From positions 753,501-817,500 of the forward strand of contig JACYXH010000175.1 in assembly GCA_026745465.1 (NCBI GenBank): a stretch of DNA of 64,000 nucleotides. The letters are read 5' to 3'. This document shows positions 8,301 through 14,300 of the stretch, piece after piece. A program made the position numbers and the translations under genes. Every line of letters starts with the position of its first letter. The stretch's first letter is position 1. The DNA is from Lota lota. Its lineage: Eukaryota > Chordata > Actinopteri > Gadiformes > Lotidae. A model generated the notes under the pieces. It was not told where the DNA came from. It saw only the letters and a list, made by a program, of their open reading frames with translations, and made no database searches.

Positions 8301-11300
8301 TCTAAAAATAGATGAATATGTTCTAATTTATTTAAGAAACACACTAACAATCACAAAACTTTGACAATACAAGGAAACACAGATTCTGTTTTTAAATAAG
8401 AAAATACCTGTGACTGTGTTTGAAGAATTTCCTGGGCTTTCTTGACTATGCCTCTCAACTGCTCCACAAACTTCTCTTTCTCAGATTCAAGGACAAAGTC
8501 TTCCTCCACCTAAACAAACATAAGGCAGCAGTAACTTACTGACTACACAAACAAGCTATTTAATAAATACTGTTGGCTGACAACTGCAAATGCATATGCT
8601 TATTCTACCATATAATCTGCAATGTCCTCGGGTGCATCCCCTTCAATGTCAAATTTGAATGTCACCATCTTGTTGCTATGGGTCTCCAACTGGCATTCAA
8701 CCATATTGTCACCACTGCTGGAAACCTACAGGGGACATGAACAATTAATTACGGAGCCAGGATGAATGAATTACACAACTAATCCACACACATATCCTAT
8801 TTGTTACTGTCCAACCCACCTGCAGCATGCTCAGCTGAAACTGGTGGGAGCTTTTCTCAGGCTTCTGGCAGGAAGATCTCCTTTGAGACTTGAGTTTTTC
8901 GAGCTTCCCATTGGCCAGGAGCTGCAACATCTCTTCGCCGTTTGGTGGAGCAGATCTGTAGGTCAGATATATGCATTATAACAGTATGCTGTACAGAAGT
9001 AAGAATAGCTGTGAGACTATTCCATGTCGTAATGGTTGCTTACTATTTACAATCCCCTATATGTTTGGTAGAGCCTGGTCTAGTTAACTGGATGTGAATA
9101 GCATACTGTATCTACTATTAAAAAAAAATGTAATGGGATTTTCAGCTCTAATGAGAATCAATTATTATAAAGTTATGAGTGCTGTGATTTCAACACATAC
9201 CCTGTTGAAGAGCGGTATTCTGTGCCGGACAGATGGGGACTTTCCTGTAGAATCCAGGGAAAATGAAAGCAAAGACACAGAGGCAATACAATAAAGCATT
9301 AGTAGGATAAATCAAGGACATACTTGCAAATACAAATATAATCATTGTATATAAATCCATTGTTGACATACAACACTGGTTAGTTTGGATAATGTAATTT
9401 TTGTGATATAGTTTCAATTAGAATATAGAAAATCTGAAATGTTAATTTTGTCATAAGAATTAGTGCTGGAGAATTTCAGCAGAAGAAAACCAAAACACTA
9501 TAAATTAACTAAAGACAATATTGTGAGGTATCAACCCTGTGGGGTTTGCGGCCTGTACCTGAGCTATGCCCAGCAATGGAGGAGGGTCACAGTCTTGCAG
9601 CGAGGTTTGGGACAGCAAGGGGACGTTAGAATCAAGCAACTGGACAGGTGCGACAGGAGGAGGGGAGGTGGGGACGTCAGCCCATCCTGGTAAGGTGGTC
9701 GGCCCCCCTGGTGGGGGCGAGGTGAGCTCTGGAGGAACTTGGCCAGCCAGAGCATGGAGGGAGGGCAGCTGGGAGAGGGTTGGTAGTGATGCTGGAGGGT
9801 AGGAGATATGAGACGGACTGGGGGGCATCTGTTGGAAAGGAAAGGCAGCATGGGGAAGAGCAGCTTGCTCGGCCACAAAAGAGGGGTTGGCCGGTTGGGT
9901 CTGTGTGTGAGATTGGGCCTGTGTCTGGACGTGCGTCTGTGTGAGAGTCTGAGCCTGGGCCTGCATGCTGGTCTGGGTATGTGTGTCGGCGGGCAGTGTT
10001 TTCTGCACGGACGATGGGGGTTGCCCTGCAACGATCTGACTGTAGAGGGGAAGCGCCTGGGGCGGGAACTGTGGCTGGGCTGAGCTCTTTGAGACGATCT
10101 GGGCAGAGTACTGGGTTAGCAGCTGGGGAGCCGCATGAGACTGAGGGGGCAGCTGACTCTGATCCGGGGCTAGCTGCTGATGGAGGAGCGGTTGCTGTAT
10201 GGAGGCCGGACTTGGAAGGGTCTGGTGTTTCTGGGGAAATGGAAGCAGCAGTTGTTGCTGCTGCTGCATTTGTTGCTGTTGCATTGGTTGCTGTTGCATT
10301 TGTTGCTGTTGTATTTGTTGTTGTAGCATTTGTTGTTGTTGATTTTGCATTTGTTGTTGCTGATTTTGCATTTGTGGTAGTGTCTGCAGCGGTGGTTGGT
10401 ACTGCCCAGTAGATTGAGGAGTTGCAGGCTGGGATATAGAGTGGGTGACGGAAGGCACGGCTGTATTTCCCATTGGCTGCTGCTGGCTCTGACCCACTGG
10501 CTGTTGTATTGTTTGACTAGGAACGTATGCTTGCCCTGTCTGCTGTACAGGAGGAAGAACAGATGTAAAGGCCATGGGGTCGACCACAGAGCAACTGACA
10601 GCCATGCCTGCTCCAACACTTCCAATGGCGCCAGGAGACAGGATCATCTGCTGATGCTGCAGTACAGAGGGCTGCTGCTGTTGTGTAACGATGTCCTGGT
10701 GTATTGACGGCATCGCTGGTTGAAGGGCTTGATTATACTGTTGTGTCAAAAGGCCGGTGGGAGCCTGAGCCTGACCCTGCACCTGGCCAGATGGCTGCAG
10801 CTGGGCCTGTAACATTCTGACATTTGGCTAGTCTGTTGTGCTGGTATGTTAGGTTGAACCTGACAGGGAGTCATGGCAACAGCAGGTGGGGACTGAATGG
10901 GAGCTTGGTTTTGCTGAGCCATCATGGTCGTGTCAGTTGGAATTTGGCCTTGTGGTGGCTGAGGCTGACTCTGCATCACTGGATGCAGGGGCTGTAGCCG
11001 GATTAAAGGCTGAGCCGCCACCTCGCCCGGCGTCATTGTGGCAGCCATTGGAAGTGTGGCCTGCAAGTGAAGTTGCTGAGTATGGGCTGATGGCGTCTGC
11101 CCCTGGATGGAAGTTAGCACCTGAGGAGGTACTTGGGCTTCCATCATTGATCGAGTCTGTGGTGCCGGGGGGGTAGCCACAGTCTGGAACTGGACTGGGA
11201 CCTGGGCTATGTTATTGGGAAGGAGATCGCTTTGTCGCTGCTGGGCCGGGACTTGAGCTTGCATCACAGCAGCGAGTGACTCAGCAGGGTGTTGTGTGGC

Positions 11301-14300
11301 CTGAACAGGTGTCGGAACCTGGGTCTGCGGTATCATTTGAGTTTGGTGCAGAGTTCCCTCCATGACGGCTGCCGGAGCTTCGATTGGCTCCGCAGCAGAA
11401 CTCGAGTGCTGCTGTGTCATGTAGGCGTTCTGCTGCTGCAAGAGCGCAGCCTGCTGTTGCGCCAGGGTGAGACTTGTGCTCGGCCCTGGGAACTGAGGGA
11501 CATTCTGTTGAGGGATACACACCTGCTGTACACCTTTCAGTTGCTGTTGAATCAACATCTGCTGCTCACTCTGTTGCTCAAGAGAGACGGCCTCTAGTTG
11601 TTGAATGGTTGTCTGTTGCTGAGGTTGCTCTTGAATCTGATTCTGCTGATTCTGGTGCGGTGGCTCTGCTTGTGGTTGCTGTTGTTGTTGTTGTTGTTGT
11701 TGCTGTTGCTGTTGTTGTTGTTGGGATTGTTTCAACAGGGCTTGGTGGTGTTGTTTGTCTAGCTGTTGTTGTAACAGAGCCTGCTGCTGCTTTGCTTCCA
11801 GCTGATGCTTGAGCTGTGCTTGTTGCTGATCCAAGCGTTGCTGCTGCAGGAGAGCATGCTGTTGTTGCAGAAGAGCTTGCTGCTGCAGGTGTTGCTGCAG
11901 TACAGCTTGCTGATGCTGTTGTTCCATTTGCTGTTGCATCTGGCTCTGTGTCTGCTGCTGTTGCTCATTCTGAGGATGTAACTGAGGCTGAGGCGTTTGC
12001 ATTAAAACACGCTGTTGGGATTGGTCAAGCTGTGGCTGTAATTGGTTTGACTGCTTCTGCTTAAGATGTAGTTGTTGGTGCTGTAAAATCACTTGCTGTT
12101 GATGTTGCTCCAGCTGTTGTTGTAAGATAGCTTGCTGTTGCGGATCTTGTGGTTGCTGCTGTAGCAAAGATTGTTGTTGCGGTAGCAATGATTGTTTCGG
12201 CTGCTGCTCTTGCTGCCGCTGGTGCAGAAGGATCTGCTGTTGCTCCAGTATTTGTTTTTGAATAAGTACTTGTTGCTGCTCCAACTGTTGTTGTTGGGCT
12301 TGTTGCTGTTGTTGTTGTTGTTGTTGGACTTGTTGCTGTTGTTGAGATTGTTGCTGTTGTTGGGATTGTTGTTGCTGTTGTTGTTGTTGGACTTGTTGCT
12401 GTTGTTGTTGTTGGACTTGTTGCTGTTGTTGAGATTGTTGCTGTTGTTGGGATTGTTGTTGCTGTTGTTGGGATTGTTGCGGTTGTTGTTGGGCTTGTTG
12501 TTGCTGTTGTTGTTGTTGTTGGGCTTGTTGATGCTGTTGTTGAGATTGTTGCTGTGGTTGCTGTTGTTGGGCTTTTTGTTGCTGTTGTTGTTGGGCTTGT
12601 TGTTGCTGTTGGATGTATGCATGTTGCTCCAGTAGTAAAGCTTGGTCTTGGTTCTGTTGCTGTTGCTGGGGTATCTGTTGCTGCATTGAAATGGTTTGCT
12701 GTTGTTGAAGGTTGTGTAGCAGTTGTTGTTGATGATTTTGTTGTTGTTTAACCTGATGTTGAAGTTGTTGCTGTTGTTGTTGCTGCTGCTGTGGTTGAAG
12801 CTGTTGCTGTTGTTGATGCTGTGGTTGTTGTAGTTGCGGTTGTTGTTGGTGCTGTAGTTGTTGCTGTAGTTGGTTCTGCAGTTGATGCTGTTGTTGGTAC
12901 TGTTGTGGGTGTTGTTGCTGTTGTTGGTACTGTTGTGGGTGTTGTTGCTGTTGTTGTTGAAGATGTTGTTGAAGCTGTTGTTGTTGAAGCTGTTGTTGTT
13001 GATTATGCTGTTGTTGTAGTTGTTGTTGTATTTGTTGCTGTTGTTGTTGTTGTTGTTGTTGGAGCAGGGTCTGTCCATGTTGATCCATGTGAAACAGCTC
13101 TGCCGGCTGGGTAAATGACAACACCTGTTGCCGCTGTTGTTCCATACCTGGCTGTGTTGCTAAAACTGTCTGTTGAGGGGTTTGCGGAGGTATGGCTTGC
13201 TGTACGTACATGTGCTGCTGAAGCTCAGGTAGATGTTGATGGGTGGCGGTGGTCGAAAGGCTCTGTTGCCGCTGTTCAGCGGTTAGCTGAGGCTGCTGAG
13301 TGGCGTTAGCATGCTTCTGTTGAAGCATAGCGGCCTGAACTTCCATTTGGTGTTGCTGCTGTACGGTGGTGGTGTGTGACTCCATCCCGGTCTGTTGTTG
13401 TTGGACAATGGTCTGCTGAGAGATCATGACAGGCTGTGCTTGCTGTTGTGCTGCCTGAGGGATGATGTCAGGGGGCTGCATAGGAGTGGCAGTGGGCTGG
13501 GTCTGCTGAGCGAGGGGTACCACGCCCCCTGCTAGTCCAGTAGGATCACCAGCCGAGAGGGACGTAGCCAGCATATTAAGGGGCGCTTGCGGAGAGATGG
13601 GGGGTATGTATGACTGTGAGGGGGCCGATGCATTGGGATTGGCAATCTGGGACCCATCTGAATTGTTTGGCTATAGTTTTGTTCAGTGGTAATGGCAGAA
13701 AGATGAGTGGTGTTGTAAGAGACAATGGGTAAAGGAAAAGACAGTGGTAGAAGAATTAGGTACAAGTAAGCTTTGGCAAGGGTCAGTAATTATCAAGGCA
13801 TTTCTAATTATTACAGGATAAAGTCACCATCTGGCACCCATTCCAATTCCATTACAAGAAGGATTTGTAATTGTGTTAATGGGTTATTTAAAGAAGTAAA
13901 ACAATAAATATTGTGGTAGTACTTGAAAATCAACTCAGTTTCAGGTCTTTAATTAGTATCAGTGTATCCTTTATGCAAATCTAGTATACAACATTAAACG
14001 AGTGGGTCAATTAACCTGAGAATATTGTTGCGTTACACTGGGTAAGACCTGTGTTGCCATGCTAGCAGGTTGAATAAATGTCTGGCCAAGAGTTGCCCCT
14101 CCACTCTGGCCAATGGACAAGCTGGAGATGCCACCGCTTTGACCAATAGGCACATTTGGAACACCTCCACTCTGACCAATGGGGAGCATTTGGGGATGAG
14201 ACGCAACCCCAGTACTCTATAACGCAGAAAAAGAAAACTTGATATTTACGGTAATTCTTCAAAACCATTTCAAGTCAATTAATTTTTTTAAGTTAGTATG

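Follow-up and report, generated by a model that had tools for sequence, protein, structure and literature searches.

A glutamine-rich exon in the WNK3 gene of Lota lota and a change of reading frame within it

Does the giant glutamine-rich exon of a WNK3 gene in Lota lota form an intact part of the protein, and could it bear on how the kinase responds to crowding? An initial annotation, made by reading the DNA by eye, had suggested that this exon might strengthen or retune condensate formation or volume sensing. The reading that we prefer, and to which we give an even chance of being right, is that the exon grew by repeats, that the long isoform is translated and gains some weak self-association from it, and that a break in the frame within the exon stems from either an indel in the assembly or a private variant.

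The WNK3 gene and its domains

The window is the whole 64,000-nucleotide stretch that was analysed (G000:C175:753501-817500), from an assembly of 575 Mb in 867 contigs, and the gene on its minus strand is, judged by its matches, WNK3, as first annotated. Aligned with human WNK3 (5o2c), the kinase and CCT1 exons, once joined, score 761 bits along their full 365 residues, and the kinase domain is nearer to WNK3 than to WNK1 (601–761 bits for human WNK3 chains vs. 549–557 bits for WNK1 chains); fifteen distinct sequences passed E 1e-60, all of them WNK3 or WNK1 and with WNK2 and WNK4 kinase domains absent, so the comparison covers WNK3 and WNK1. The Pfam families above cut-off in exons 1–9 are Pkinase and OSR1_C (94 bits), the latter corresponding to CCT1, and the second CCT-like domain, CCTL2_WNK, is matched by downstream exons with 88.5 bits at a cut-off of 27 (the query being the two CCTL2 exons of Table 1 plus the preceding exon, 8955-8820). 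Both CCT1 and the second CCT-like domain are present in the gene by Pfam, and the glutamine-rich exon is placed between them.

Two further features of the gene were observed. The intron after kinase exon 5 (15865) apparently starts with GC (GCAAGC) and would be a GC-AG intron, and there is a large ORF of 796 codons at 7960-5573, perhaps what was earlier called exon 17.

Table 1. Features of the WNK3 gene, in positions of the window
Feature	Position	Strand	Basis
WNK3 exons 1–9: ATG at 30139, kinase domain, CCT1 (OSR1_C), start of tail	14016..30139	-	Splice sites and phases by eye; WNK3 match; Pfam
ORF1 (Gln-rich, 974 codons), which continues the phase of exon 9; 13613 is a likelier start than 13670	10749..13670	-	ORF; acceptor scores
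Main glutamine-rich segment of low complexity, with 700 residues, a Gln share of 51.9% and 32 His	11409..13508	-	Gap rule from PMC8890752; coordinates from residue numbers
Frame change ORF1/ORF2, net one base missing or two extra	10809..10828	-	Change-point score
ORF2 part of Gln-rich exon, with 423 codons and a Gln share of 23.9%; its donor at 9559 scores 5.0	9559..10827	-	ORF; splice score
44-nt microexon	9201..9244	-	Acceptor 6.8, donor 7.5; open join to exon 11
Exon 11, phase 2 as in the C175 paralogue (paralogue phase by eye)	8820..8955	-	Translation of join
Two exons (8725-8609, 8509-8408) of second CCT-like domain (CCTL2)	8408..8725	-	Ends by eye; CCTL2_WNK

The frame break and the limits of the exon

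Exon 10 had been described as about 1,350 residues dominated by glutamine and read in one frame. The richness in glutamine stands, with 504 Gln among 1,369 residues (36.8%) over both open parts and a longest run of 16, but the single frame does not. The stretch 13670-9559 is 4,112 nt long, which is 2 mod 3; ORF1 terminates at a stop codon, and the reading is carried on in another frame by ORF2 (10827..9508). When the region 11100-10600 is scanned for a change-point, with codon frequencies taken from the remainder of the exon, a switch of frame at 10817-10815 scores +78.4 compared with -32.3 and -28.3 for either frame alone, a margin of more than 100 log units; any switch between 10823 and 10809 comes within 4 units of the best, and the upper limit is set by a stop at 10830-10828 in the ORF2 frame. 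From the ATG to the C-terminus, with exons followed to 8408, the reading is thus interrupted by the frame change at ~10828-10809 and does not run in a single intact frame. A literal reading from 13613 meets a stop after 955 codons and gives a protein of ~1,706 aa that lacks the second CCT-like domain.

On either side of the break the phases agree with the rest of the gene. Exon 9 ends in phase 0 and leads into the ORF1 frame (by eye), and the ORF2 frame fits the 44-nt microexon and exon 11; we infer one net frame shift with both ends of the exon correct. Because both open parts keep the frame demanded by their neighbouring exons, the whole glutamine-rich stretch was probably coding until very recently. 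The break, which would not be the usual state of the gene, probably comes from an indel in the assembly or else is a private variant. There is some indication of past constraint in the Gln-dense windows (508 codons), where 90 non-Gln codons are one base away from CAA or CAG and none of these is a stop (if unconstrained, P = 6e-6 when all changes are weighted equally and 2e-9 when transitions count double), although the stretch was picked for being open and the evidence is not independent of that choice. Programmed frameshifting was considered and set aside, as an X XXY YYZ heptamer was not seen when the overlap was read by eye.

How readily an assembly error would arise in an exon of this size can be gauged from other long exons. 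Cadherin_2 domains occur in long single-exon protocadherin genes. A search for them scored 150 of 167 candidates and listed 140 matches; by hand count, the open frame reaches 780 codons in 127 of these and falls short in 13. If all 13 were errors, at ~2.5 kb per match, ~0.15 errors would be expected per ~4-kb exon; several of the 13 may be pseudogenes or other genes, so that the true error rate may be lower. The assembly is not very error-prone, and with ~0.15 errors expected an assembly indel should therefore not be presumed for an exon picked at random; even rarer, in our judgement, is a true break in a gene whose following exons are intact. We note that a very large protocadherin-type cluster (C643:146633-643925) contains 120 of the 140 Cadherin_2 matches listed (hand count).

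Were the frame change nonetheless real and fixed, WNK3 would end after the glutamine-rich part and lose the second CCT-like domain and all beyond it. This is very improbable. The literal reading of ~1,706 aa and the measured good quality of the assembly accord with it, as does the lack of a second junction copy with the other state; a search of the assembly for a second haplotype copy matched only the window itself and therefore gave no check on the break. However, ORF2, the microexon, exon 11 and the CCTL2 exons are all open in mutual phase, which is unexpected in a gene that has long been broken.

The limits of the exon, as predicted here from the sequence with scores for acceptors and donors, differ in two respects from those first proposed. 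A start at 13613, in the same phase, is likelier than one at 13670, since the acceptor at 13670 scores -4.0 and that at 13613 scores 6.7; the 13 acceptors taken as true in WNK3, that of the microexon included, range from 4.9 to 10.5, and ten donors in the gene from 2.2 to 11.3. Nor does exon 10 appear to be followed directly by exon 11, as a direct join of 9559 to 8955 meets a stop, and the reading is open through exon 11 when the overlooked 44-nt exon at 9244-9201 is inserted. Exon 11 has phase 2, and the exon taken as matching in the C175 paralogue has the same phase (by eye). No phase-2 donor scoring above 1 was found within 10300-9505, and a simple alternative to the microexon is therefore not seen.

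The break would be irrelevant if most mature mRNA skipped the exon or removed part of it, which we regard as improbable. The phases would permit this, since either exon 9 (phase 0) or a donor at 11523 could join a phase-0 acceptor in ORF2 (10230, 10056 or 9828), and the scores of 9.0 for the donor and 9.1 to 9.3 for the acceptors match those of sites taken as true. However, in 300 synonymous codon shuffles a donor as strong arises in 27% and as many acceptors of at least 9 in 32%, and coding text reaches the break from both sides, which is not expected beside an old intron. Splicing inside the exon was set aside as a candidate, the internal sites being no better than those of the synonymous shuffles. 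The preferred reading, with a single exon coding throughout and broken by an indel or private variant, fits the neighbouring phases, and for the present the locus serves mainly as a warning that reading a giant exon by eye may miss both a frame break and a microexon.

Glutamine content and repeat growth

Glutamine is concentrated in the ORF1 part (403 of 946 residues, 42.6%, with 38 His), where the run of 16 lies and 18 runs of at least five hold 126 Gln, and is sparser in the ORF2 part (101 of 423). The densest 100 residues of the exon contain 83 Gln, and His makes up 26 of the 508 codons of the Gln-dense windows. With E values of up to 0.01 allowed, Pfam gave no match to either the ORF1 or the ORF2 part, a simple pattern search of the exon found no SPAK/OSR1-binding R-phi motif, and a search of the literature by title found nothing on a glutamine-rich or polyglutamine region of WNK3.

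The description of the exon as prion-like holds in one sense and fails in another. By the rule of at least 30 Gln/Asn per 80 residues, 620 of 1,290 windows of 80 residues qualify, with a maximum of 68. Asn richness is typical of well-studied prion-like domains, but the 513-residue core contains only 9 Asn, and its aromatic residues are limited to 3 Tyr and 1 Phe, with no Trp, so neither the aromatic-sticker (PMC11472293) nor the Asn-rich make-up of those domains is present in it. The definition of glutamine-rich low-complexity sequence in PMC8890752 requires a length of 15 or more, no gap longer than 17 and a Gln share of 25% or above. Two of six Gln-linked segments qualify, of 700 residues (51.9%) and 239 residues (31.8%), and a third, of 231 residues, has 24.2%. 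Tested by block shuffle, hydrophobic residues of the core lack heptad periodicity, with z values of 1.4, 0.6 and -2.7 at lags 7, 4 and 3, and a glutamine-rich coiled coil was set aside for the core on the absence of signal at these lags; lags 1, 8, 12 and 13 are raised, with z of 2.1 to 3.1.

Codon usage within the exon is also unusual. In the Gln-dense windows there are 208 CAA and 95 CAG codons (CAA 208/303) compared with 50 CAA and 122 CAG (CAA 50/172) in exons 1–9 plus the ORF at 7960-5590, an excess of CAA with Fisher P = 6e-17, and in the ORF2 part CAG is commoner than CAA (60 vs. 41). There are exact direct repeats of 60 bases at 12470/12383 and of 40 bases at 12956/12926. The CAA-rich codons and tandem duplications suggest that the exon was lengthened by repeat growth, and CAA/CAG growth may have extended a glutamine-rich stretch that was already present at this place in WNK proteins. 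Elsewhere in the window, at 51421-51576, there is a tandem array with a 40-base unit, 3.9 copies and 94% matches.

Other WNK-like loci and known systems

Six further WNK-like loci were found in the genome, and at each, 30 kb was read from or just beyond the kinase exons, taking ORFs of at least 60 codons within set limits. The highest Gln counts per 100 residues are 38 (C175), 30 (C382), 27 (C50), 19 (C77), 12 (C416) and 10 (C702, in a 78-codon ORF and with 7,500 of the 30,000 bases being N), compared with 83 in the window; four of these values are rough, as the CCT2 end was not found at C702 and C382 and the starts at C50 and C416 were set by eye. The highest comes from a paralogue on the same contig as the window, ~5.3 Mb away (G000:C175:6100643-6095326), in which a 384-codon ORF lies between CCT1 and CCT2. 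With tblastn at E up to 0.01 the glutamine-rich exon had no match in the six paralogous regions, which is a weak test as a query of exons 7–9 also had none, and a pattern search of four of these regions for a conserved exon of RRxSC type found nothing.

The glutamine-rich exon is an extreme variant of a known WNK feature. It is possible, although we doubt it, that this reflects ordinary repeat drift, with the exon tolerated in a disordered linker, present across the clade and without special influence on volume sensing. In favour of drift, the exon shows repeat-like growth in its CAA-rich codons and its tandem duplications, other WNK-like loci have glutamine-rich stretches as well (38, 27, and the 30 at C382, where placement of the ORF is uncertain), and neither part of the exon has a recognised domain; yet both its length and its 83 Gln per 100 are far above the other loci as read, and both parts have been kept open. 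Polyglutamine tracts grow by CAG/CAA repeats, and the WNK3 exon is similar to them in its repeat-like growth and in having Gln runs of up to 16, but dissimilar in that its codons are a mixture, with CAA predominating in the dense part, and are frequently interrupted.

A second comparison is with yeast SNF5, whose glutamine-rich low-complexity domain is described as a pH sensor in PMC8890752. Gln amounts to 42% there and 42.6% in the ORF1 part, and both have His scattered among the Gln (7 residues in SNF5, 38 in the ORF1 part); WNK3 belongs to another protein family, however, and, with a single base separating His from Gln codons, its histidines may have arisen by drift. Sensing of pH by the His-bearing stretch is only a possibility. 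A bolder proposal, that a lineage-specific giant Gln/His-rich segment yields a sensor with a changed threshold for crowding, perhaps for pH through His, and with a short or truncated form as its built-in counterpart, we regard as distinctly improbable.

A role of the exon in condensates is possible. Under the preferred reading the long isoform would be translated, and the disordered tail, through which WNK kinases condense under crowding, would gain weak self-association from the exon; with few aromatics and no heptad signal, such self-association would therefore rest on Gln and not on aromatic stickers. If the long isoform is made, it would represent a natural experiment in which the low-complexity tail of a volume-sensing kinase is given a large dose of Gln, and it could be asked whether Gln load alone, nearly without aromatic stickers, shifts the WNK crowding threshold.

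The nearest setting for this role is mammalian WNK1. As initially noted for WNK1 condensates and its low-complexity C-terminal region, the tail drives condensation of WNK kinases, and phase separation of WNK1 is driven by two prion-like regions, one of them proximal in the disordered tail, according to a review (PMC11472293). The WNK3 exon departs from the WNK1 proximal region as described there in its ~1,350 codons, its up to 83 Gln per 100, its few aromatics and its lack of a heptad signal. In common with that region (PMC11472293), it is a low-complexity stretch of a WNK family tail after the kinase domain, and the C175 paralogue of the same genome is also glutamine-rich in the CCT1–CCT2 interval; the WNK3 exon appears to sit where the WNK1 proximal prion-like region would fall.
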